This document shows, piece by piece, positions 1 to 60,414 of a DNA stretch of 64,000 bases. Made by a program: the position numbers and the translations under genes. Source of the stretch: Bacteroidales bacterium (GTDB lineage: Bacteria > Bacteroidota > Bacteroidia > Bacteroidales > F082); contig WGCY01000009.1 in the NCBI GenBank assembly GCA_015493525.1, positions 1 through 64,000 on the forward strand, given 5' to 3'. Numbering within the stretch: position 1 is the first letter of the stretch; every line of letters begins with the position of its first letter. Under the pieces are notes generated by a model. It searched no databases. It had not been told where the DNA came from and was given only the letters and a program-made list of their open reading frames with translations.

Positions 1-424
1 CGGATTTTTTACCACCAAGGAACACGAAGGACAACACAAAGGATACCAAGGATTTTGCAAAAAAAAATAACACCTAACTTCTTCAACGCTTAACGCCTAA
101 CTTTTTTAACCACGAAGGAACACAAAGGACACCACGAAGGACACCAAGGAGGTATTTCTCAGACATTCTTTTTTCTCCCAGCGTTCAACCCTGAGGCAAT
201 CAGCGTTGGCCATTACGGGGGGCATTGCCGTGAGGGTCTTCGCATTTTTTTTATCGTTTAGCTCTGAGACAATTAGCGAAAGCTTTGCGGGCGGTAATTG
301 TCGTGAGAGCCTTCGTGTTTTGAAACGGAAAACATTTGTTGCAAAGATTCTCACAGCTTGTCCCGTTCCAAACGGGGCCGCACGCTTCCCACATTCCCCG
401 CCCCATGCGACTCAGAAATAAACG
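1..424. repeat. Long dispersed repeat R1, left copy
   Basis: This stretch is nearly identical to 3220-3645: both run from CGGATTTTTT through CACGAAGG/CACAAAGG heptamer-like motifs, a TTTTTT-rich spacer, two hairpin elements and a CCCGTT/AACGGG mini-hairpin, ending at CAGAAATAAACG. The copy may begin before the window. No convincing gene lies in it; short open frames here have no family match that I can see. Confidence 0.85.
188..310. repeat. Paired hairpin elements (type 1 and type 2)
   Basis: Type 1 (188-237) has outer stem ACCCT/AGGGT, an internal loop GA opposite GTG, and inner stem GGCAAT/ATTGCC. Type 2 (261-310) has outer stem GCTCT/AGAGC, the same GA/GTG internal loop and inner stem GACAATT/AATTGTC. 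A further CGTTT/AAACG pairing (255-259 with 323-327) encloses type 2. Both types recur further along the first 4.1 kb with compensatory base changes. Confidence 0.7.
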
Positions 425-440
425 GATGGTGGATATTTAT

Positions 441-730
441 TATCGTTTAGCTCTGAAACAATTAGCGAGAGCCTGGCGGGCAGGAATTGTTGTGAGAGCC
501 TTCGGGTTTTGAAACGGAAAACCACAAAGTCCCACCAAGGATATTCACAAAGTCTCACCAAGTTTTTCCCAACGAATTACACCAATTACACGAATCTTTT
601 TATCCCTCTGTCCCTTCGTCTCTTCGTCACTCTCACCCTCTCATCCTCTCACCTTTTCACCCTTTCACCCTTTCACCCCCTCATTCCTTCGTGCCTCCTT
701 TGTGAAACCCCTTCGTGCCCCTTCGTGGTA
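441..730. repeat. Dispersed repeat R2 with hairpin and C/T-rich tail
   Basis: Closely matches 4051-4361. It opens with a type 2 hairpin (450-499: GCTCT/AGAGC, GA/GTG loop, AACAATT/AATTGTT), continues with CACCAAGG-like motifs and the phrase ATTACACGAATC, then becomes an almost purine-free C/T tract (about 600-690) made of TTCGTC and TTTCACCC units. I see no gene. Confidence 0.8.
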
Positions 731-740
731 AAAGTTAAAC

Positions 741-957: not shown

Positions 958-2799
958 ATGCTAGAAAAAATAATCACCAAATCACAAAAACTAATGCGAA
1001 AGGGAACAGCGAAAGCTAAAAACTACGCCCGAAAAAACATTCTAACACCAATAATAATAGGAACAATAGGAATAGCAAGCATACTAAACCCCCAACAAAC
1101 AACAGCACAAACAATAAAAACAGACACCATATACGGAAACGGAATAATACAAACAATAGATAGTGCAACAAACAATTTTCTAGGAGACGTAACATTATAC
1201 CTAAGACCAGAAGAAAACAGCAAACTACCAGACACAACATACGAACTAAAAACAGACATAGATGGAATGACCGATTTCAACCTACCAATAAGCATAGACA
1301 CAATAACAACAGGAATAAAACAATACAAAAACCAAAAAAACATAAAAATATGGCCAAACCCAGCAAACGGATTCAACACAGAAACAACAAAAAACCAAAT
1401 AAAAGAAATAAAAATATACGACATACAAGGAAGAACAATAAAAGACGAACAAGAACAAAACACAAAACACGCATTCACAAGCCTAAAAAACCAACCAAAC
1501 GGAACATACATATACGCAATAAAACTAGACAACAACAACACAATAACAGGAAAATTCATCAAAACAAACAAACCAGCAAGAAAAACAAACAACAACAACT
1601 ACAACAACACAACAAACAACAAACCACTAAACCTAAAAACAAACGAAATAAAAACAGCAAACTACTGGATCAAATGGGAAAAAAAAGGATACAAAACAGA
1701 CAGCACACTAAAAACAATAAAAGGAAAAACAGACTGGAGCCAAATAATAAACATATACCTAAACAAAAAAGCACCACTACCACCAGGAACAATAACATTC
1801 ACAAGCACAGCAAGAAGCCTAGACAGCCTAATAGCATACAACAACAAAGGAGACAGCATACCAGCACCACTAAAAGGAGCAATAGCATACCTAATAGACT
1901 TTAACAAAAATAAAGTAATAGGAATAGACACAACAGACGAAAACGGAAAATTCACATTCCACAAAATACCACAAAACATCGAAACAGTATTCCTAATAGG
2001 AAACAAAAAAGGATACTACTCATTCGGAGGAATACATTACATCACACCAAACAACATAAAAGCAGGAACAGACAGCACAATAGAAAACGTATTCAACGCA
2101 ACACTACCAAAAATAAGAATAACAACAAAAGGAGACACAGTACCAGCAAGCCACATAGCAGACCAAAACCTAGACGGAACAGTAATGGGAACAATGATAA
2201 TAGACTCAACAACATTAAAACCAATAACAGACACAACAGGAACAATAAAAATAGAATTCACAAAAAACAAAGACCCAACAAACACCTCATACGGAATGGA
2301 ATACACCCAAGCACAAAAAGACACAATAATAGCAAGAATACAAGAATACATAAGAGAAGAAGGAAACAGGTACAAAATACAAGTAGTAAACAAACTACCA
2401 AGAGACAAAAACGGAACAATAAGAACAGGAATACTAATAAGCCCAGGAAGCAACGCAACAAACGCCAGCCAAATAGAATACAAAACACCACTAGGAAAAA
2501 ACTACCCAACAATATGGGCGAAAATGCACCTATCACCAGGAGGAGAATACAAAGGAATAGTACACGAAATGAAAAGAGCATTCGGATTCGGGGAAACAAG
2601 CTACTCAAACAGCGTAATGAACCAATTCGCAAAAGTATACACAGCAGAGGACAAAGAAATAGGAAAACTAAGCAGAGATTATCACAGGTACGAATACCAC
2701 ACAATGCCCCACACACCAAAAAACACCATAATAACAAACCCGAACCTAAGCAACATAAGAGCAAAAGCATACACAGTGAAAGTGGCGAATGAAAAGTGA
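958..2799 (+). CDS. Exported protein with A/C-only wobble codons
   Basis: A 613-residue protein of unknown function. Residues about 28-51 form a hydrophobic stretch ending TTAQ, compatible with an export signal. Residues about 126-205 look like a T9SS sorting-type beta domain (WPNPANG, IKIYDIQGR, NGTYIYAI), but placed internally. After an Asn/Lys-rich linker come Ig/carboxypeptidase-regulatory-like segments (GIDTTDENGKFTF). Near residue 536, HEMKRAFGFGE resembles a metzincin HExxHxxGxxH motif with the second and third ligands missing. Codon choice is extreme: Ile is ATA, Leu CTA, Thr ACA, Gly GGA, Asn AAC, with almost no T or G at third positions until the final codons. It is flanked by R1/R2 repeats and a promoter-like TACCTTTG. 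A transferred or specially selected gene is possible. Real gene: likely; function: unknown. Confidence 0.75.
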   Translation: MLEKIITKSQKLMRKGTAKAKNYARKNILTPIIIGTIGIASILNPQQTTAQTIKTDTIYGNGIIQTIDSATNNFLGDVTLYLRPEENSKLPDTTYELKTDIDGMTDFNLPISIDTITTGIKQYKNQKNIKIWPNPANGFNTETTKNQIKEIKIYDIQGRTIKDEQEQNTKHAFTSLKNQPNGTYIYAIKLDNNNTITGKFIKTNKPARKTNNNNYNNTTNNKPLNLKTNEIKTANYWIKWEKKGYKTDSTLKTIKGKTDWSQIINIYLNKKAPLPPGTITFTSTARSLDSLIAYNNKGDSIPAPLKGAIAYLIDFNKNKVIGIDTTDENGKFTFHKIPQNIETVFLIGNKKGYYSFGGIHYITPNNIKAGTDSTIENVFNATLPKIRITTKGDTVPASHIADQNLDGTVMGTMIIDSTTLKPITDTTGTIKIEFTKNKDPTNTSYGMEYTQAQKDTIIARIQEYIREEGNRYKIQVVNKLPRDKNGTIRTGILISPGSNATNASQIEYKTPLGKNYPTIWAKMHLSPGGEYKGIVHEMKRAFGFGETSYSNSVMNQFAKVYTAEDKEIGKLSRDYHRYEYHTMPHTPKNTIITNPNLSNIRAKAYTVKVANEK

Positions 2800-2950
2800 A
2801 AAGTGAAAAGTGAAGAGTGAAAAGTGAAAAGTGAAAAGAGAAAAATGAAAAATGAAAAATGAAAAATGAAAAAGGAAAAAAAAAGAATAAAACAAAACAA
2901 AATGAAATAAAACAAAACAAAACAAAAAGAAACAGACAAAACAAAAAAGA
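2779..2950 (+). repeat. G/A-rich tandem heptamer tract
   Basis: The end of the preceding gene runs into tandem GTGAAAA/GTGAAGA units (about 2779-2840), then AAAAATG repeats, then AAAACAAAACAA repeats. The tract is nearly free of C and T up to about 2880, and is roughly the reverse complement of the C/T tracts upstream of the gene. The remaining bases to 3168 hold no gene that I can support. Confidence 0.8.
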
Positions 2951-3168
2951 GGGTCAAAAACACAAAGAACCACGCCCCACGCCAAACGCCGAACTCTGAA
3001 CGCAAAACGCTGAACTCCGGCATCCGGTCTTCCCGCCGCCCTGCCAAAACAGCCAAAGATTGGCAAGCACAGGGCTAAGATGGCGTGCGCCCAAAGCCAA
3101 AAGCACGCAACAAACTAATGTTCAGCAAGTTACAAAACGGAAAACCCAACCCCTCCATTCCCCGTTCA

Positions 3169-3216
3169 ACCCTGAGGCAATTAGGGCAGGTTGTGGGTTA
3201 GCATTGCCGTGAGGGT
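3169..3216. repeat. Hairpin element, type 1
   Basis: ACCCT/AGGGT outer stem, GA/GTG internal loop and GGCAAT/ATTGCC inner stem, with a loop sequence different from the other type 1 copies. It leads directly into the right R1 copy. Confidence 0.65.
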
Positions 3217-3219
3217 CTT

Positions 3220-3645
3220 CGGATTTTTTTACCACGAAGGAACACGAAGGACAACACAAAGGATACCAAGGATTTTGCAAAGAAAAATAACGCCTAACTT
3301 CTTCAACGCTTAATGCCTAACTTTTTTAACCACGAAGGAACACAAAGGACAACACGAAGGACACCAAGGTGGTATTTCTCAGATATTCTTTTTTCTCCCA
3401 CCGTTTAACCCTGAGGCAATTTGCGCTGACCTTTGCGGGTGGAAATTGCCGTGAGGGTCTTCGCATTTTTTTTATCGTTTAGCTCTGAAACAATTAGCGA
3501 GAGCCTGGCGGGCGGGAATTGTTGTGAGAGCCTTCAGGTTTTGAAACGGAAAACATTTTCAGCGCAGATTCTCACAGCTTGTCCCGTTCCAAACGGGGCC
3601 GCACGCTTCCCACATCACCCGCCCCGTGCGGCTCAGAAATAAACG
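3220..3645. repeat. Long dispersed repeat R1, right copy
   Basis: Near-identical to 1-424, in the same orientation. It contains a type 1 hairpin at 3408-3458 (inner stem GGCAATTT/AAATTGCC) and a type 2 hairpin at 3482-3531 (inner stem AACAATT/AATTGTT). The two R1 copies bracket the A/C-wobble gene; the GIY-YIG gene follows immediately. Confidence 0.85.
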
Positions 3646-3671
3646 AATAATGAGTATATTTGAAGAAGATT

Positions 3672-3968
3672 ATGGAACGGGGAGGATATACGTATATTAC
3701 CACAACAAAAAGAAACACCGTATTATATACCGGAGTAACGTCAGAACTTCGGACAAGAATATGCCAGCACAGGACCAAAGCGTATCCTAATTCATTTACA
3801 GCACGTTATAATGTGGACAAACTTGTTTACTTTGAATATTTTCATTACATAAGTGAAGCTTACGATCGGGAAAAACAAATTAAATCATGGAAACGGGATA
3901 AGAAAATAGCGTTAATCAACCGGTTTAATCCCGAATGGAAGGACTTGTATGATGAAATTGAAGAATGA
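3672..3968 (+). CDS. GIY-YIG domain nuclease-like protein
   Basis: A 98-residue single-domain protein of the small UPF0213-like GIY-YIG type. The N-terminal strand pair reads YTYI...LYTG in place of GIY...YIG, followed by the conserved Arg/His region (TSELRTRICQHR), the acidic DRE (EAYDREKQIKSWKR) and the C-terminal PEWKDLY seen in this family. An in-frame TTG at 3660 would add four residues; the ATG at 3672 starts just before the domain and is preferred. It lies wholly between R1 and R2 repeat copies. Members of this family often sit beside dispersed repeats, but whether it acts on these repeats is a guess. Nuclease activity is inferred from the fold only. Confidence 0.85.
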   Translation: MERGGYTYITTTKRNTVLYTGVTSELRTRICQHRTKAYPNSFTARYNVDKLVYFEYFHYISEAYDREKQIKSWKRDKKIALINRFNPEWKDLYDEIEE

Positions 3969-3986
3969 TTTCCTTTCCCCCGTTTA

Positions 3987-4109
3987 ACCCTGAGGTAATC
4001 AGCGTTGGCCATTACGGGGGGCATTGCCGTGAGGGTCTTCGCATTTTTTTTATCGTTTAGCTCTGAAACAATTAGCGAGAGCCTGGCGGGTAGAAATTGT
4101 TGTGAGAGC
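3987..4109. repeat. Paired hairpin elements (type 1 and type 2)
   Basis: Type 1 at 3987-4036 has inner stem GGTAAT/ATTGCC, so a G-T (G.U in RNA) pair replaces one G-C of the other copies. Type 2 at 4060-4109 has AACAATT/AATTGTT. Both keep the GA/GTG internal loop. They follow the GIY-YIG stop codon by about 20 bases. Confidence 0.7.
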
Positions 4110-4470
4110 CTTCGGGTTTTGAAACGGAAAACCACCAAGTCCCACCAAGGATATTCACAAAGTCTCACCAAGTTTTTCCCAACGAATTGCACGAATTACA
4201 CGAATCTTTTTATCCCTCTGTCCCTTCGTCTCTTCGTCTCTTCGTCCCTTCGTCCCTTCGTCACTCTCACCCTCTCACCTTTTCACCTTTTCACCCTTTC
4301 ACCCTTTCACCCCCTCATTCCTTCGTGTCCCCTTTGTGAAACCCCTTCGTGTCCCTTCGTGGTTAATTTTTTCCTCATTTCTTCGTGTTCCTTTGTGAAA
4401 TCCCTTTGTGTTCCTTCGTGGTTAATTGTTCCTTCGTGGTTAAACTTCCTTCGTGGTTAATCCCTATATC
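4051..4470. repeat. Repeat R2, right copy, and TTCGTG tract
   Basis: Matches 441-730, with the same hairpin, CACCAAGG motifs and C/T tract, then continues as repeated CCTTCGTGTCC / CCTTCGTGGTTAA words to about 4460. Those words are the reverse complement of the AACCACGAAGG motifs at 108-155 and 3328-3375. No gene is supported here. Confidence 0.8.
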
Positions 4471-12228: not shown

Positions 12229-14031
12229 TTAATTTTTGTTGGCCCGTTTCCGTTTGGTTTCGTCCAGGATGATTTTCCGCAGGCGCAAAGAGCGTGGGGT
12301 TACTTCGAGGTATTCATCTTTGCGGATAATCTCCATGTACTCTTCAAGGGAAAACTTAATGGCCGGGGGAATCAATACTTTGTTGTCCGAACCGGAGGCA
12401 CGCATGTTGGTCAGCTTTTTGCCTTTGTTGACATTGATTACGATGTCTTTGTCGCGGGTGCTCTCGCCAATAACCTGTCCGGCATATACCTGGTCGTTGG
12501 GAGAGATATAAAACCGGCCGCGGTCAATCAGTTTCCAAATGGCAAAAGCAACAGCCGTACCGGTCTCCATGGAGATTAAAGCAGCATTGTTACGGGTTTG
12601 AAATTCCCCTTTCCATGGCTCAAAAGCTTTGAAACGGTGGGCAATAATGGCTTCGCCTTCCGTTGCGGTGAGGATAGCGTTGCGCAAGCCAATGATACCG
12701 CGTGAGGGGATACTGAATTCCAGCAACATCCTGTCGTTTTTCGGTTCCATATTCTCAAATTCCCCCTTGCGTTGGGTAACCATATCGATAACCCGTCCCG
12801 AGAAATCTTCCGGTACTAACACGGTGAGGCTTTCCACCGGTTCGTGTTTTACGCCATCGATGGTTTTGATGATGACCTTGGGTTGTCCCAGTTGAAATTC
12901 ATAACCCTCGCGGCGCATGGTTTCGATAAGGATGGAAAGATGAAGGATTCCCCTTCCGAAGACGAGATAGGTATCTGCCGAATCGGTTTCTTCCACACGC
13001 AGTGCCAGATTTTTCTCTGTTTCGTGAAAAAGGCGGTCGCGCAAGTGGCGCGAAGTAACGTATTTTCCTTCTTTGCCAAAAAATGGTGAGTTGTTGATGG
13101 TAAACAACATACTCATGGTAGGCTCGTCGATTTTGATGGGAGGCAATCCTTCCGGATTTTCATAGTCGGCAACGGTGTCGCCAATTTCAAAATCTTCGAT
13201 GCCCATGAGGGCGATGATGTCGCCGGCATAGACTTCGCCTTTGTATTTTTCTTTTCCCAGTCCTTCAAAGCGGTAAAGTTCTTTGATTTTGGACTTTTTG
13301 ATGCTGCCATCCCGTTTTACGAGGGAGACGTTCATCTCGGCTTTCAGTTTGCCACGCAGTAGCCTGCCAACGGCAATACGTCCCACATAAGAGGAATAAT
13401 CCAGCGATGTAATTTGCATCTGTGGTGTACCTTCAATATATTTTGCAGAGGGAATATGTTCCAAAATCTGATCCAACAAATAAGAGACATCGGTGGTCGG
13501 GTTTTGCCAGTCGGGGCCCATCCAGCCCTGTTTTGAGGAGCCGTAAACCGTTGGAAAGTCCAACTGCTCTTCGTTGGCACCCAGGTTAAACATAAGGTCG
13601 AAAACGGCTTCCTGTACTTCTTCGGGACGGCAGTTGGGTTTGTCCACTTTGTTGATAACCACGATGGGAATCAGTTTCAGATCGATGGCTTTCTGCAGGA
13701 CAAAACGTGTCTGCGGCATGGGGCCTTCAAAGGCATCTACCACAAGCAAAACGCCGTCGGCCATATTCAAAACGCGTTCCACTTCGCCACCGAAGTCGGA
13801 GTGACCGGGGGTGTCGATGATGTTAATCTTGACCCCTTTGTAACGAACGGAGACATTTTTGGACAGAATGGTGATACCCCTTTCTCTTTCGAGGTCGTTG
13901 CTGTCGAGGATAAGGTCTCCCATGTTTTGGTTTTCGCGGAAGAGCTTTACCTGGTATAAAAGTCTGTCAACCAGTGTAGTCTTGCCGTGGTCAACGTGTG
14001 CGATAATGGCAATATTTTTAATTTCTTTCAT
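12229..14031 (-). CDS. typA: Translational GTPase TypA/BipA
   Basis: 600 residues, the usual length. An elongation-factor-type GTPase that binds ribosomes and helps assembly and growth under stress or cold. G1 is [10 protein letters not shown] (about 11-20), followed by the switch I region GITILSKN, G3 [12 protein letters not shown]4 NKVDKP and the EF-Tu domain 2 and EF-G-like domains; the C-terminal domain reads [17 protein letters not shown]. Strand and promoter (TATCTTTG on the minus strand at 14061-14068) indicate transcription towards the lipoprotein gene. Confidence 0.97.
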
Positions 14032-14060
14032 CTGTTTTACAGGGTGTTAAATTCGGGCTG

Positions 14061-14068
14061 CAAAGATA
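14061..14068 (-). promoter_or_regulatory. Bacteroidota -7 promoter element for typA
   Basis: On the minus strand this reads TATCTTTG, about 30 bases before the typA ATG (14031). Confidence 0.65.
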
Positions 14069-14579
14069 CATCTAATATTGAGACGGAATACGTGGGGGTG
14101 GAAAGGTGGGTGGGGGGGTAGTAGGGTTGAAAGGTTGAAAGGTGGGAGGGTGGTAGGGTTGAAGGGTTGAAGGGTTGAAGGGTGAAAAGGTGAAAGGGTG
14201 AGGGGGTGAAAAAGAGAAATTGCGAGGGGATGAAAGGGTGAGAGAGGGTTTGGATGGTTGTTTGGTTGTCAGGCGGTTGTAAGATAGTTGTCATACAATT
14301 GTCAAACGGTTGTCAGGCGGTGGCCAAAACTTTTGTTTTTTGTTTTTTTCTTTTTGTCTTGTATTCTGCGGCAGGGATGGAAACGGATAGCCCGGAGTGC
14401 CAAAGCGGATGAAGGCCGGCAGGGGCGGAGCGACGGCAGGAGCTACCGCAAATGCCCTGGCCGACACCGCTGTGGCGCGAGGACTATGAGTGGACAGCCC
14501 GTGATGGCCTTGCGGGACGGCCCGCCCAAAAAAAGATTCTCCCGAAACTTTTCTGCCGGGTGCTTTGCTGTCAGTTTTG
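14069..14579. other. Gene-free, G/A-rich repeat spacer
   Basis: The divergent gap between typA and prfA. About 14090-14240 is a purine-rich tract (GGTTGAAAGG, GGGTTGAAGGG, GGTGAAAGGG units), the reverse-complement flavour of the C/T tracts near 650 and 4290. About 14240-14320 repeats GGTTGTCAGGCGGTTGT-type words. The remainder to 14579 is GC-richer (CCGGCAGGGGCGGAGCG) without a gene I can support. Confidence 0.6.
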
Positions 14580-14587
14580 TATCTTTG
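14580..14587 (+). promoter_or_regulatory. Bacteroidota -7 promoter element for prfA
   Basis: TATCTTTG, 19 bases before the GTG at 14607. It lies inside the longest possible prfA frame, supporting the downstream start. Confidence 0.65.
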
Positions 14588-14606
14588 CCGGCAAAAGAAA
14601 AAAACT

Positions 14607-15680
14607 GTGGAAATTTTAGAGAAGCTGGAGGCCATCAAGAACCGCTGGGAGGAAATTGCCGAGCAAATGAGCGACCCTGCCGCTATGGCGGACATGAAGC
14701 ATTTTGTGAAGCTGAACAAGGATTACAAAGAGCTGGAACCGGTTGTAAATGCTTATAAAACCTATAAAAACCTGCTTGGAAATATTGAAAATGCCAAGGA
14801 AATACTGGCCAATGAGCAGGATGCGGAGTTTCGGGAAATGGCCAAAGATGAGCTGGAGGCGTTGCAGCCGAAACAAAAGGAGATGGAGGAGCAGATTCGG
14901 CTGTTGCTGATTCCGAAAGACCCGCAGGATGCCAAAAATGCCGTGATGGAAATCAGGGCGGGAACGGGCGGCGATGAGGCTTCTATCTTTGCCGGCGACC
15001 TGTTTCGCATGTACCAGAAATATTGTGAGGGCCGCGGATGGAAAGTGGATGTGGTAGAGCTGAATGAGGGGACTGCCGGCGGGTTTAAGGCCATTGTGTG
15101 CAATGTGATTGGCAATGGGGCTTATGGTACGTTGAAATTTGAATCGGGGGTACACCGGGTGCAGCGCGTGCCGAAAACGGAAACGCAGGGGCGCATTCAT
15201 ACTTCGGCGGCTTCGGTGGTGGTGCTTCCGGAAGCGGATGAGTTTGATGTGGAGTTGCACGACAAAGACATCCGCAAGGATACGTATTGCTCTTCCGGTC
15301 CGGGCGGCCAGTCGGTGAACACGACCTATTCGGCCATACGGCTGACGCACATTCCATCGGGTATTGTGGTTACCTGCCAGGATGAGAAATCGCAGATAAA
15401 AAATCTGGCCAAGGCTATGAAAGTCTTGCGTACGCGCCTTTATGAACAGGAATACAATAAATACCTCGATGAAATGTCTTCCAAACGGAAGACCATGGTT
15501 TCTACCGGCGACCGATCGGCAAAAATAAGAACCTACAACTGGCCCCAGGGACGGGTAACGGACCATCGCATCGGATTGACGCTCTATAATTTACAGCCGA
15601 TTATCGATGGTGATATTCAGGAGCTGATTGACAAGTTGCAAATGGCCGAAAATGCCGAGCGGCTGAAAGAGGAACTTTGA
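14607..15680 (+). CDS. prfA: Peptide chain release factor 1
   Basis: 357 residues from GTG 14607 (VEILEKLEAIKNRWEEIA...), the usual RF1 length. It ends translation at UAA and UAG. The N-terminal coiled region (about 1-100) is followed by domain 2 with GTGGDEASIFAGDLFRMY, the VHRVQRVPKTETQGRIHTS anticodon-recognition region, and the catalytic GPGGQSVNTT (GGQ) near residue 235, whose Gln is normally methylated. It is transcribed away from typA. No prmC methylase gene is adjacent. Confidence 0.96.
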   Translation: MEILEKLEAIKNRWEEIAEQMSDPAAMADMKHFVKLNKDYKELEPVVNAYKTYKNLLGNIENAKEILANEQDAEFREMAKDELEALQPKQKEMEEQIRLLLIPKDPQDAKNAVMEIRAGTGGDEASIFAGDLFRMYQKYCEGRGWKVDVVELNEGTAGGFKAIVCNVIGNGAYGTLKFESGVHRVQRVPKTETQGRIHTSAASVVVLPEADEFDVELHDKDIRKDTYCSSGPGGQSVNTTYSAIRLTHIPSGIVVTCQDEKSQIKNLAKAMKVLRTRLYEQEYNKYLDEMSSKRKTMVSTGDRSAKIRTYNWPQGRVTDHRIGLTLYNLQPIIDGDIQELIDKLQMAENAERLKEEL

Positions 15681-55624: not shown

Positions 55625-55705
55625 TTATTTATAGTTATCATATTTGTTTTTGGCACTATCTGCCAAATGCACTATATTTTTTAATGCGGGTAATGAATCA
55701 TTCAT
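55625..55705 (-). CDS. 26-residue frame coupled to the receiver gene
   Basis: An ATG overlaps the receiver-gene stop by eight bases (ATGAATGA) and opens MNDSLPALKNIVHLADSAKN then KYDNYK before TAA. The frame continues in phase past this stop into the HepT remnant. It may be the start of a truncated third component of the inserted system, or a chance frame. No family recognised. Confidence 0.3.
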   Translation of the reverse strand: MNDSLPALKNIVHLADSAKNKYDNYK

Positions 55706-56897
55706 CTTTTATCGCTTTTTCCGGTATTGCCGGTAATCCTTGTCTATGTAAGTAAAATGCATATTTTTGCTGTATAGCAGTGATATATGGCGGTAAAATT
55801 CTACCCATTCTATCATCTTTCAAGGTATTCCATTTTTTAATTTTTATGTCATTTAATGAAAATTCTAAAATCTTTCCCGAAAGAATAAAGGGTAAATAAA
55901 TCTTATTTATCCGTTCGATAAATGCCCCCTCGATAAATCTTATTTCATTATCACTTGGCTCATTAGGATTTATATCATTTTCATTTACGATCCTGCCTTT
56001 CAAACAATATATTTCAGGGTTCGATTTTCTTGCTATGTCACATTCTGGACGTATATTCAAGTAGTATCTATCTTCATTTTCACCATCCGCTCTATATCTA
56101 TACAAATCACCAGTAAACGGCATATGCGGTAATGAATCATTTTTTATAAATCTTTCTGCTTCTAAAACTTTTCTTATCTCTTCTTTTGATAAATCATTAT
56201 CTTCTAATTTTAAAATATCTTCATCAAATTTAATGGGTTCAGTTCTTGCCATTATATTTTTGAAAATGAAATTTCCGAGTTCATAGTTTACATCAGAGCC
56301 ATCTTTTGTGAATGTTTTTTGTAAAACAGACGGCCATTTGTGATTGATATTGTAAAAATCCCAAAACAGCTTGTTTTTAGCTTCATTTAATGACTTTTCC
56401 CATTCTTTAAGTACATAGATAGACGGCGTTTTTTCTAACCAACTTTTTATAACACCAAACATCTTGAAAGAGTTATTCCGAGTAAATAATTCTTGTTTTC
56501 TTTTTACAAAAATATAATTGTTCCTTTCACTATTATATAAATTTTTATCATTAAGTTGCCTAATGATTTCATCAGGAGTTTCGTTACTAAAGATAAATAT
56601 TGGAGAGAAAGTAATTTTTCTCAATTTTCTAATAAATCTAAAATTCCTATCAATTTCACTCTCTGCAGCACTTGTCCCTTGTAAATTATTATCAAACAAC
56701 TCCCAATCAAGTAAAATAAAAGAAATATTGCTAAAATTGTTTATTATTTTGTTTTCAGGAATATCTTCAAAGGTTAATAAAGGTATTTTATTTTCTAATT
56801 TCTCAACAATTCTCAATATTAAATCATTACTTTCCGGTTTATTAATATTGTCATCAATAACTACAGCTACACCTTCGAATAATTTCTTTATATCCAT
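55698..56897 (-). CDS. Receiver-domain protein with unknown C-terminal domain
   Basis: 399 residues. Residues about 8-150 form a response-regulator receiver-like fold: acidic pair D15-D16 (VAVVIDDN), probable phospho-acceptor D64 (FILLDWELF), S104 (IFIFSNET) and K132 (YIFVKRK). It resembles the Pfam response receiver family found with Hsp90-like kinases. The C-terminal half (about 160-399) shows no nuclease or DNA-binding motif that I can name; conserved-looking patches are PHMPFTGDLYRY, YLNIRPECDIARK and RILPPYITAIQQKYAFYLHRQG. It is two bases downstream of the kinase gene, so is its natural phosphorylation partner. Probably the output or effector part of the inserted system. Strongly AT-rich. 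Confidence 0.8.
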   Translation of the reverse strand: MDIKKLFEGVAVVIDDNINKPESNDLILRIVEKLENKIPLLTFEDIPENKIINNFSNISFILLDWELFDNNLQGTSAAESEIDRNFRFIRKLRKITFSPIFIFSNETPDEIIRQLNDKNLYNSERNNYIFVKRKQELFTRNNSFKMFGVIKSWLEKTPSIYVLKEWEKSLNEAKNKLFWDFYNINHKWPSVLQKTFTKDGSDVNYELGNFIFKNIMARTEPIKFDEDILKLEDNDLSKEEIRKVLEAERFIKNDSLPHMPFTGDLYRYRADGENEDRYYLNIRPECDIARKSNPEIYCLKGRIVNENDINPNEPSDNEIRFIEGAFIERINKIYLPFILSGKILEFSLNDIKIKKWNTLKDDRMGRILPPYITAIQQKYAFYLHRQGLPAIPEKAIKDE

Positions 56898-56899
56898 AA

Positions 56900-59152
56900 T
56901 TAATCCTCTTTAACAAAACTTACAACGAAATTGGCACCGGACAATATTTTTTCAGAATTTATGTCTGCTAACCATATTGCATAATCTATTCTTTCAAGAA
57001 GTTGACGAGCTATGTATAAACCAAGCCCCCTACCTTCTTCTCCTTTTCCTGAATAAAATGGTTCAAAAATGTAAGGTACATCTTCTTTGTTTACACCGGG
57101 ACCATTGTCAGAGAAAATTAATTTACCTGCATTGCCATCAAGCGTTATTAAAATTGTCTTATCTTTTATGTTTAAGGTGCTTAACCAATAAATGGCATTG
57201 TCAAACAGGTTAATTAAAAGTTGTAATAAAATGGCATCGGTGCATTTGGCAATTAATGGTGAACCAATCTTATTAACTTTCACTTTTATTTTGCTACGAC
57301 TTAAAATATTTTTATAAATTTTAATAACTTTTTCAAGAACTTCTGAAACTCTGATATCCCTTCTTCGTTGTTTAGTTGATTTAAACATTACCTGAATGTC
57401 TTTCATTTGTGATTCCACAAAAGAGAATATGCCACGTAATTTATGAAGTTCATCTACGGCTTCTTGTGTTGATTTTGTATTATTCATTAAATCTTTTACT
57501 AAATCATCAATCCCCAAGATTCCTTTGGAAAGCATTGACATCATATCGTGTGAAGCAACCTCAACAGACAATCCGATGCTTGCTAATTCTTCTGTTGTCT
57601 CAACTCTTTTTACTAAATAATTTCGTTCAAGTTTATAGGTTTTTGAAAGGTTATTTACTGCATTTACAACAGCCTTGTTATTCTTAAAATTTTCTTTAAT
57701 TTCTTCAAGTTGTCTTTCTATTTCCTTAGTTTTAAAGACATCTTGTTCCTTTTTGTTTTTTTTATAGTTAATTAAATATTGCTTAAACTGTTTTTGGCGG
57801 TAATAGGAAAGAAATGATTGGATTAAAACAATGAAATCTTGTGGAGCATTTCCTTCATCAATTAATCCTTCTCTATTTGTTTTATCTATTAAATCTGGAT
57901 TATCTTTTTTTGAGATTTTAACGACACCGATAATTTGGTCATTACTAAAAAAATAACTTGCTCTTTCTAAACCTCTTAGCTTATCTATTTGTAGCCAATC
58001 GTCATCTTTATTTCCGTATGGATAAACTCTTATATCATCTCTATATAAATATATTCGATGTTCTCTTATTAATTCTCTATCATTTCTATCTAATTGATAT
58101 TTGAGTGGAGCATTTTTACCAAAATCGAAAATATAAAAATTAAAGGAAAAATTACCGCATTCAGGTAATCTGTATTCATCTGTACACTCCTCCTTTTTTT
58201 TCTTTTGGTCATAAGTTTTTTTACAAAAATTTTCTTTAAATAATTTAATTCCTTTAAAATGAGAATCATTTATGCTTAATAATTTGGGAATACCATTTTC
58301 TGTATAATCAAACTCCGTATTGTTGAAACTACCCTCAATTTTGAAAACCGCTTTATTTTCCAATAATCCTGATAGTTTATCTAAATAATTCTCGGATAGT
58401 GTTAACCTTTCACGGTTTATGTAAAAACCAACATCGAATTTATCTTTACTTTTCTCGGTGTGAAAAATTTTATCAAAAATTGATTGAAGTTTCTGAATAT
58501 CCTTATAGATATTCTCAACTTTTTTTCGAGACCATTTCCCTTTTAAGCCGGTAATTTCGATAATAGTTCCTTTATTATTTTGATTTACTTTCTTGTGCTC
58601 AACTTCTAATTCCTGATTAAGTAATTTTTGCGGTGCATTTATTTTGACTTCAATATTAATGTCATCGATAAAAAGCTCTTTTTCTTTCTGATTTTTAGTT
58701 AAAAAATTCTCATCATAGGCTGAAAGGTCATAATTTATCTCATATTCTTCATTCGAACTTTCAGGGCGGGTTGTAATAAGTATTTTATTTCCTAATTTCA
58801 ATATTGCAAAGCGACCAATGCCTTTTTCTCCTTGAACAATTCTTCCCTTTTTTGTAGTAAATGTTTCCCCTTTTCCTTTGAATTTATTCGGGGTAGCTGG
58901 GTTCATCCAGCTTTTTTCAATTGTTTCCAGAGTCATCCCTGTTCCATTGTCCCTGATAACAATTTTAGAATCTTCTTTTATTTCAAAATTGTCTCCAAAG
59001 TTCTCGAAACACACTTTTACCCAATTAGAATCAGCATCATAAGAATTTTTTATTAATTCCGTTAATGCAATCTGTTCATTTTTGATTAACTGCTCACCAA
59101 GCATTGTTAATAGCCTGGCATAAGGTCTTATTTTAAAAGTCTTTTTATCCAT
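56900..59152 (-). CDS. Dual GHKL ATPase: Hsp90/MORC-like plus histidine kinase
   Basis: 750 residues with two GHKL ATPase modules. The first (about 1-200) is Hsp90/MutL/MORC-like: ALTELIKNSYDAD (N box), VIRDNGTGMT (G1) and QGEKGIGRFAILKLG (G2). A long middle with a coiled segment (KKNKKEQDVFKTKEIERQLEEI) follows. The second (about 525-750) is a histidine kinase: phospho-acceptor candidate H535 in EVASHDMM, N box INLFDNAIYWL, G1 IFSDNGPGV, F box IFEPFYSGKG and G2 GRGLGLYIA. No membrane segment, so the signal is intracellular. It lies in the tight MTase-kinase-receiver operon (1-base overlap upstream, 2-base gap downstream). The pair is probably a cytoplasmic two-component system; what it senses is unknown. 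Confidence 0.88.
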   Translation of the reverse strand: MDKKTFKIRPYARLLTMLGEQLIKNEQIALTELIKNSYDADSNWVKVCFENFGDNFEIKEDSKIVIRDNGTGMTLETIEKSWMNPATPNKFKGKGETFTTKKGRIVQGEKGIGRFAILKLGNKILITTRPESSNEEYEINYDLSAYDENFLTKNQKEKELFIDDINIEVKINAPQKLLNQELEVEHKKVNQNNKGTIIEITGLKGKWSRKKVENIYKDIQKLQSIFDKIFHTEKSKDKFDVGFYINRERLTLSENYLDKLSGLLENKAVFKIEGSFNNTEFDYTENGIPKLLSINDSHFKGIKLFKENFCKKTYDQKKKKEECTDEYRLPECGNFSFNFYIFDFGKNAPLKYQLDRNDRELIREHRIYLYRDDIRVYPYGNKDDDWLQIDKLRGLERASYFFSNDQIIGVVKISKKDNPDLIDKTNREGLIDEGNAPQDFIVLIQSFLSYYRQKQFKQYLINYKKNKKEQDVFKTKEIERQLEEIKENFKNNKAVVNAVNNLSKTYKLERNYLVKRVETTEELASIGLSVEVASHDMMSMLSKGILGIDDLVKDLMNNTKSTQEAVDELHKLRGIFSFVESQMKDIQVMFKSTKQRRRDIRVSEVLEKVIKIYKNILSRSKIKVKVNKIGSPLIAKCTDAILLQLLINLFDNAIYWLSTLNIKDKTILITLDGNAGKLIFSDNGPGVNKEDVPYIFEPFYSGKGEEGRGLGLYIARQLLERIDYAIWLADINSEKILSGANFVVSFVKED

Positions 59153-60414
59153 TATTCTTTTTTTCCTATTACAATAAATTCTTCTGCATAAACCTTACGG
59201 CTACTTTTATCAGTTGTGAATTTACCATTTTTATCACGATATGGCGTTAATATTTTATTGGAAATTTTGCGCTTAGTTATCTCAATATCGGTAAATCCTG
59301 TATTAATCATACATTCTACAAGGTGTTTGGCATTATTAATTTTAACACTCTTATATTCGGTATTTCCTATAACAAAAAGAGCAATCCCATTATTATTAAG
59401 CATATTGTAAGATTTCACAATAGTATTTTGCATATCAACAAAATATTTCGCTGCTGACCTTGCTTTTCGCTTATCTTTATTGTACAGTCTAAATACTATA
59501 TCTTCACCAGTTTTGTTCAATTGCTTGGCATCTTTTATAAAATCAGTATTGTGATACAAACTACCAATAGAACCTTCTCTTAGTGTTTTATAGTCATTAG
59601 TAAAATCCAACCACAAGGTAGATAATTGATGTAAATCAGCATATTCGTATGAAGTTACATAGGGAGGACTCGTGACGATAAGATCTGCAAATGGTTTTTT
59701 GATTTTTTTATTTAAAAAGTTAATGTTTTCAATTCTTACTTGTGATTTATTATTGTCGTTTTCTTGATTTGCCAATCTCATTATATCAAATTGTCTTGAA
59801 AAATTAGTAAGAACATTAGCAGGTTTTTTGTTAGGGTCAAGTTGAGGCTTGATAGATTTTGTAAGCCACATAGAAGTAGGTTTTAATATATTGGAGAATG
59901 CAGTGAGAAAGAAGTTTAAATATTTACTTTTCTGTGGAATGCTCTGATAAATTGAATATTTCAGTTTTAATAAATTTATTATTTGCTCTTCTTTAAACCA
60001 ATATTTAATTCTTTCATTAGTTTCTAATAAATCATTCTTGCTAACATTCTTTTTGCGATAGTTATTTAATATTATGTCATAATACTTATTTAAAGTAGAA
60101 TCTTTATATACTTGGCTTTTCGTTTTTGCAATCAAAGTGGCAACAGGATTTATATCACTGCCCCAAAAATTTTTACCGTTTCTTGTTGCTTCAAAAGCTG
60201 TAGTACCGCAACCGCAAAACATGTCTCCAACCCAATCAACTTTCAACCCATAATTTTCAGCATAATCAATCGCTTTATTTGTAATAAACGCAGGAAATTT
60301 TGCAGGATAAGAGTGTATTCTATGCATTTTATTTTCTTTCACATCTCCCGTGTTCCAAAATTCTTCAATTGGGATGGAATCAAAATCAATATTTATATTA
60401 TTGTTTATTTGCAT
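59152..60414 (-). CDS. SPPY-type DNA methyltransferase
   Basis: 420 residues. An N-terminal segment HRIHSYPAKFPAF (about 31-43) is typical of large N4/N6 methylases of this kind. SAM motif I is DMFCGCGTTAFEA (D64 to T71 region) followed by GSDINP; the catalytic motif IV is VTSPPYVTSYEYAD (about 247-260), pointing to cytosine-N4 (or adenine-N6) as target. SAM motif before catalytic motif sets it apart from the methylase at 20976. It has its own target-recognition-like middle (about 100-235). First gene of the inserted operon; its TAA shares a base with the ATG of the GHKL gene (TAATG). No restriction nuclease is recognised beside it. Strongly AT-rich. Confidence 0.9.
   Translation of the reverse strand: MQINNNINIDFDSIPIEEFWNTGDVKENKMHRIHSYPAKFPAFITNKAIDYAENYGLKVDWVGDMFCGCGTTAFEATRNGKNFWGSDINPVATLIAKTKSQVYKDSTLNKYYDIILNNYRKKNVSKNDLLETNERIKYWFKEEQIINLLKLKYSIYQSIPQKSKYLNFFLTAFSNILKPTSMWLTKSIKPQLDPNKKPANVLTNFSRQFDIMRLANQENDNNKSQVRIENINFLNKKIKKPFADLIVTSPPYVTSYEYADLHQLSTLWLDFTNDYKTLREGSIGSLYHNTDFIKDAKQLNKTGEDIVFRLYNKDKRKARSAAKYFVDMQNTIVKSYNMLNNNGIALFVIGNTEYKSVKINNAKHLVECMINTGFTDIEITKRKISNKILTPYRDKNGKFTTDKSSRKVYAEEFIVIGKKE

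Follow-up and report, generated by a model that had tools for sequence, protein, structure and literature searches.

Codon bias is usually ascribed to genome-wide mutation or to translation. In vertebrate mitochondrial DNA, strand asymmetry runs in the direction of A- and C-ending codons. Vertebrate mitochondrial genes have a strand-asymmetric composition linked to deamination of single-stranded DNA (PMC3269015). The gene described here, at positions 958-2799 of a 64,000-nucleotide stretch of a Bacteroidales genome (the window), resembles those genes in that its coding strand is likewise rich in A and C at third positions, with G and T rarer and a weaker effect at the other positions. It differs in being a single gene in a bacterial chromosome rather than a replicon, in having more A at fourfold sites (92%) than deamination transitions would give, and in belonging to a regime that starts and stops within genes. 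Here single genes or blocks depart almost wholly from usage that is normal in their neighbors. Below, G000 denotes the genome under study and G004, G084, G381, G444, G375, and G833 denote other Bacteroidota genomes.

Across all codons of the open reading frame, third positions are A.659, C.274, G.044, and T.023. Of the 41 codons with a G or T ending, 15 are ATG or TGG, and with Met and Trp excluded A and C occupy 95.7% of third positions, compared with a mean of 49.6% (sd 5.8%, maximum 64.2%) in 268 other ORFs of at least 150 aa from a 400 kb sample of the same genome. At fourfold sites the counts are A 211, C 10, G 7, and T 1 (A.916, C.045, G.032, T.006; A at 211 of 229), while A in the other 268 ORFs averages 18% and reaches at most 47%. 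These values confirm the preliminary description, which had reported near-exclusive A or C endings that neighboring genes lack; compared gene by gene, this gene stands apart, showing neither normal wobble usage nor a bias shared with other genes of this genome. Unanchored runs of A/C wobble also picked up low-complexity genes rich in Q, K, and N, by way of the second codon position; the search pattern was therefore given two NTA anchors. The anchored pattern matched 10 times in the window versus 0 in 100 shuffles, and no second gene in the whole genome matched it, all matches falling within 958-2799.

Other details of the preliminary description held in part. G and T endings had been described as nearly absent until the last codons; the last ~12 codons do deviate, but so do the first ~28, and the 26 exceptions other than Met and Trp are clustered, with 12 neighbor pairs no more than 3 codons apart versus 3.1 expected (0 of 5000 shuffles). 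The proposed use of one codon per residue needs correction for Ser, which prefers AGC (19) to TCA (6), and for Cys, which is absent from the protein.

Table 1. Features of the locus, in window coordinates.
Feature	Position	Strand	Description and basis
Direct repeat block, left copy	5..732	+	Several ungapped segments, about 88-96% identical to right copy
A/C-wobble gene	958..2799	+	613 aa, ATG start; protein predicted to be of secreted type, its T9SS type A tail internal; from ORF and codon counts, homologues in G004 and G084
Core of A/C regime, codons 29-594	1042..2739	+	ORF ends nearer ordinary; from positions of G/T-ending codons and 60-codon profile
Internal Por_Secre_tail domain, residues 131-201	1348..1560	+	Pfam PF18962 E 5.9e-9, TIGR04183 E 1.3e-10
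HExxRxxGxxE then SVM, residues 536-554	2563..2619	+	Resembles metzincin zinc site, two ligands replaced
Noncoding A-rich, T-poor 3' flank	2800..3030	+	~230 bp beyond stop
Direct repeat block, right copy	3220..4366	+	Insert carries GIY-YIG ORF
Small GIY-YIG endonuclease-like ORF	3660..3968	+	Inside right repeat block; Pfam PF01541

The wobble bias is a rule on bases, not the rule on codons that had been proposed. The fourfold distribution predicts the other synonymous classes fairly well: R-ending pairs were predicted at 97% and seen at 97%, Y-ending pairs were predicted at 87.5% C and seen at 92%, and the Ile codons were predicted at 69/3/0.5 and seen at 67/5/1. Where two A-ending codons compete, CTA exceeds TTA by 29:2 for Leu and AGA exceeds CGA by 12:2 for Arg. 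Replaced amino acids lean the same way. Among residues that differ from the G004 homologue, the net change at codon position 1 is A +47, T -20, and G -28, and at position 2 it is A +21 and T -19; relative to G084 the drift has the same direction. Val, Ser, and Phe are down with respect to the G004 protein, and Ile, Lys, Asn, and Thr are up. The noncoding 3' flank has the same lean, so that the compositional island spans ~958-3030, and positions 2871-2990 within this flank are, apart from the gene, the sole A/C-alphabet DNA that the 400 kb sample contains. A codon-level rule favoring Watson-Crick-cognate tRNAs was rejected, since ATA is used over ATC and CTA over TTA, and since the amino-acid shifts track base composition.

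The favored codons are often the rarest of the genome (CTA 3%, rank 6 of 6; CCA, 4 of 4; ATA, 3 of 3; AGA, 5 of 6), which argues against translational optimization: the codons preferred for Leu, Pro, Ile, and Arg are rarest or nearly so, and not those of a highly expressed, translationally optimized gene. Rare codons might instead serve translational control, the product being synthesized at a slow rate or only upon charging or modification of certain tRNAs. The rarity of CTA, CCA, ATA, and AGA speaks for this proposal, but GAA, AAA, and AAC are each the genome's most frequent choice within their codon set, and the first-position shifts, the amino-acid shifts, and the 3' flank are left unexplained; we consider it very improbable.

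The best-supported account, which we hold tentatively and at somewhat less than even confidence, combines a strand-asymmetric substitution pressure, local and limited by protein constraint, with patchwise gene conversion. The coding strand of a ~2 kb segment would have been pushed over the long term, base by base, toward A, toward C where A would alter the protein, and away from T and G, with purifying selection keeping the protein. The likely source would be a locus-confined, strand-asymmetric substitution process by which the template strand suffers a net loss of A and C and gains T and G, and gene conversion would then shift differently biased patches among alleles and copies. That mutation and not selection exerts the pressure is our inference, as is the origin of the patches in gene conversion. 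As in mitochondria, A and C are enriched on one strand at free sites. Transitions alone, however, would be expected to turn the composition of the G004 homologue (A.30, C.18, G.19, T.33) into an A:C ratio of ~49:51, versus the 211:10 found, which bears out the earlier remark that pure deamination of the template strand does not suffice for the preference for A. An adenine-mutagenic diversity-generating retroelement removes A and does not add it, the opposite of the gain seen here, and was set aside as a cause on that ground.

Several points count against the favored account: no lesion, enzyme, or mutator behind the bias was identified, the prediction for Y-ending pairs is somewhat low, the ends of the G000 ORF are themselves less biased, and selection on RNA also predicts base-level effects. 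A mutational pressure would point to a local, strand-specific mutator not yet described; a selective one would make the gene a very clear example of base-by-base shaping of a transcript. A literature search of incomplete coverage found no published case of one bacterial gene written in a dialect of this kind.

Selection on the transcript is a possible but somewhat unlikely explanation, in which an unstructured mRNA poor in U and G is favored, possible benefits being stability, export-coupled translation, or avoidance of pairing with other RNAs. The preliminary description had predicted an almost unstructured mRNA, and the computed folding agrees, with a mean MFE of -4.8 kcal/mol per 120 nt. 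Other genes average -26.6 (sd 4.1), and every one of the 40 sampled folds far more strongly. The same protein written in genome-typical codons gives -16.9 per 120 nt, indicating that the weak folding is due partly to the protein and for the rest to base choice. Transcript selection is consistent with the base-level effects, with the biased 3' flank (which may be a UTR), and with the confinement of the bias to coding DNA in the G381 and G444 genes described below. Furthermore, avoidance of mRNA:ncRNA pairing has been reported as a selective force across prokaryotes (PMC5028192). As the driver of the bias, however, selection for an unfolded transcript is unsupported. Among 24 base-priority rules the weakest structure is reached with A>C>T>G (MFE -3.4), which prefers T to G, whereas in the gene T is avoided more strongly than G, both at fourfold sites and in the use of AGC over TCA for Ser; its codons fit A>C>G>T at 91.7% and A>C>T>G at 89.6%. 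Unfoldedness is thus more likely a by-product than the target. Shuffling of synonymous codons leaves folding unchanged (-4.9 versus -4.8), speaking against fine placement of codons. Unfoldedness usually matters most at the 5' end of an mRNA, and here the bias is weakest at both gene ends, the 5' end included. Homologues also manage without the bias, be it in half of the gene or in the whole of it.

Homologues over most of the length were found only in G004 and G084 among 173 family genomes, both at ~33% identity, a distance that leaves ancestral states uncertain. G004 belongs to the same genus and its complete genome holds two copies, while G084 belongs to another genus and matches in part, so that homologues are equally distant within the genus and beyond it. 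A sequence search of a general genome contig collection gave one match, weak and to the tail only. The check proposed earlier, whether homologues share the A/C wobble rule, therefore rests on rare full-length homologues, and the rule is not generally kept in them, their codons being ordinary or half-ordinary. The first ~290 codons of the G004 homologue are T/G-ended and the remainder is A-rich. Because the shared N-terminal half is T/G-ended in G004 and A/C-ended in G000, the protein does not dictate the bias. Directly upstream of the G004 homologue with this T/G-ended 5' half lies noncoding DNA made up almost entirely of G and T (L064:4521-4670), and the homologue is flanked by T/G-rich repeats different from those in G000.

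Comparison of the two G004 copies over 2247 nt shows 14 differences, all of which lie in two clusters. The first cluster comprises six third-position changes in 61 bp, all synonymous, five of which end in A or C in one copy. Since all six changes fall at third positions, replacement from a long-diverged donor is likelier than a one-off mutational shower, which would hit other positions as well. Clustered differences between near-identical copies resemble gene-conversion mosaics between paralogues; the departure from such mosaics is that one patch differs at synonymous third positions only, with five of six changes toward A/C. Such near-identical copies within one genome make the question of cause testable. 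Patchwise gene conversion would account for the block structure of related genes. In a block-clustering test on 126 genes of at least 400 codons, the top five were the G444 gene, the two G004 copies, the G381 gene, and the G000 gene, all of the internal-tail kind. The G000, G381, and G444 genes had been found through composition and the G004 copies by homology, so the rank of the latter is an unbiased test.

Scans with the anchored pattern (about 950 genome scans) took in sets at the level of the phylum (395 genomes), the order (393), and the family (173) and yielded a few further A/C genes: those in G381 and G444, one in G375, and several polysaccharide genes in G833. The G381 gene has an A/C share of.87, and the G444 gene carries an A/C block at codons 480-660; in both, the bias begins and ends within the gene, between flanks of ordinary composition, which argues against a simple regional mutation process. 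Both proteins carry an internal T9SS tail, like that of G000. Their C-terminal domains show no significant likeness to the 958-2799 product by profile, and homology of the whole architecture is not claimed. The remaining in-family matches of the anchored pattern were rejected as low-complexity or ordinary genes. It is conceivable, although decidedly unlikely, that in some Bacteroidota a dedicated process rewrites selected genes patchwise into an A/C (or T/G) dialect with the protein kept, preferring secreted proteins with an internal T9SS tail. The G375 gene (L178:298-996, minus strand) encodes a response regulator of the LuxR type; its A/C wobble is 83%, in a genome that is AT-rich. Two of the G833 genes (L174:1402-2670 and 13665-14936) are UDP-sugar dehydrogenase paralogues, 88% identical in protein and 87% and 67% A/C, respectively; their first ~85 codons are almost alike, and the differences are mainly T-to-C and G-to-A at third positions.

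In G000 the gene is flanked on either side by blocks of low-complexity text that belong to an intergenic repeat family spread through the genome (81 matches; positions 1-957 and 3160-4440 of the window). The GIY-YIG ORF in the right block and another near the G004 homologue match PF01541 with E values of 4.3e-15 and 3e-15, respectively. An island bounded by such repeats, together with homologues that are rare and equally distant inside and outside the genus, fits recent horizontal transfer of the segment from an unsampled donor using the dialect genome-wide. This version of the "strange donor" suggested in the preliminary description stands as a rival, albeit an unlikely one: none of the Bacteroidota genome scans with the pattern revealed a donor-like genome, plasmids and viral contigs held no relative, and transfer alone leaves unexplained the blocks inside genes of three other genomes. 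An artefact of assembly, contamination, or chance might be suspected because the gene sits at the very start of contig C9. That reading is extremely improbable and already contradicted by the open 613-codon frame with homologues, by the genome's own repeat family on both flanks, and by a right flank that continues into normal genes.

The encoded protein is predicted to be of secreted type, exported by the T9SS, from a tail domain that scores above the curated cut-offs (PF18962, 36.5 bits, cut-off 27; TIGR04183, 41.1, cut-off 23). It shares this significant domain with T9SS type A sorting-domain proteins and differs from them in that the tail is internal, 412 residues ahead of the C terminus, instead of C-terminal. 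The tail is also internal in the G004, G084, G381, and G444 proteins. Comparable internal-tail proteins with ordinary codons are widespread, so the architecture is insufficient for the A/C bias; those at L191, L197, L199, L200, and L204, from various Bacteroidota, have a T9SS-tail-like domain near residue 100-180 followed by several hundred residues.

Near the C terminus, HE, G, and SVM occur in the order expected of metzincin metallopeptidases, but the product reads HEMKRAFGFGE in place of the HExxHxxGxxH/D zinc site. The C-terminal metalloprotease-like part has no Pfam or other profile match, a search by sequence gave no convincing PDB relative, and a single-sequence structure model was unusable (pLDDT 31). 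V-H-E-x-x-R-x-x-G-x-x-E with SVM is kept in three homologues, and the two clearest share HExxRxxGxxE and SVM. This suggests a degenerate metzincin-like (zincin) site, in a region that is probably inactive or of other function. Elsewhere in the window, positions 55698-60414 hold three AT-rich minus-strand genes with A/T-ended codons, unlike the remaining window, which are probably a transferred cluster.
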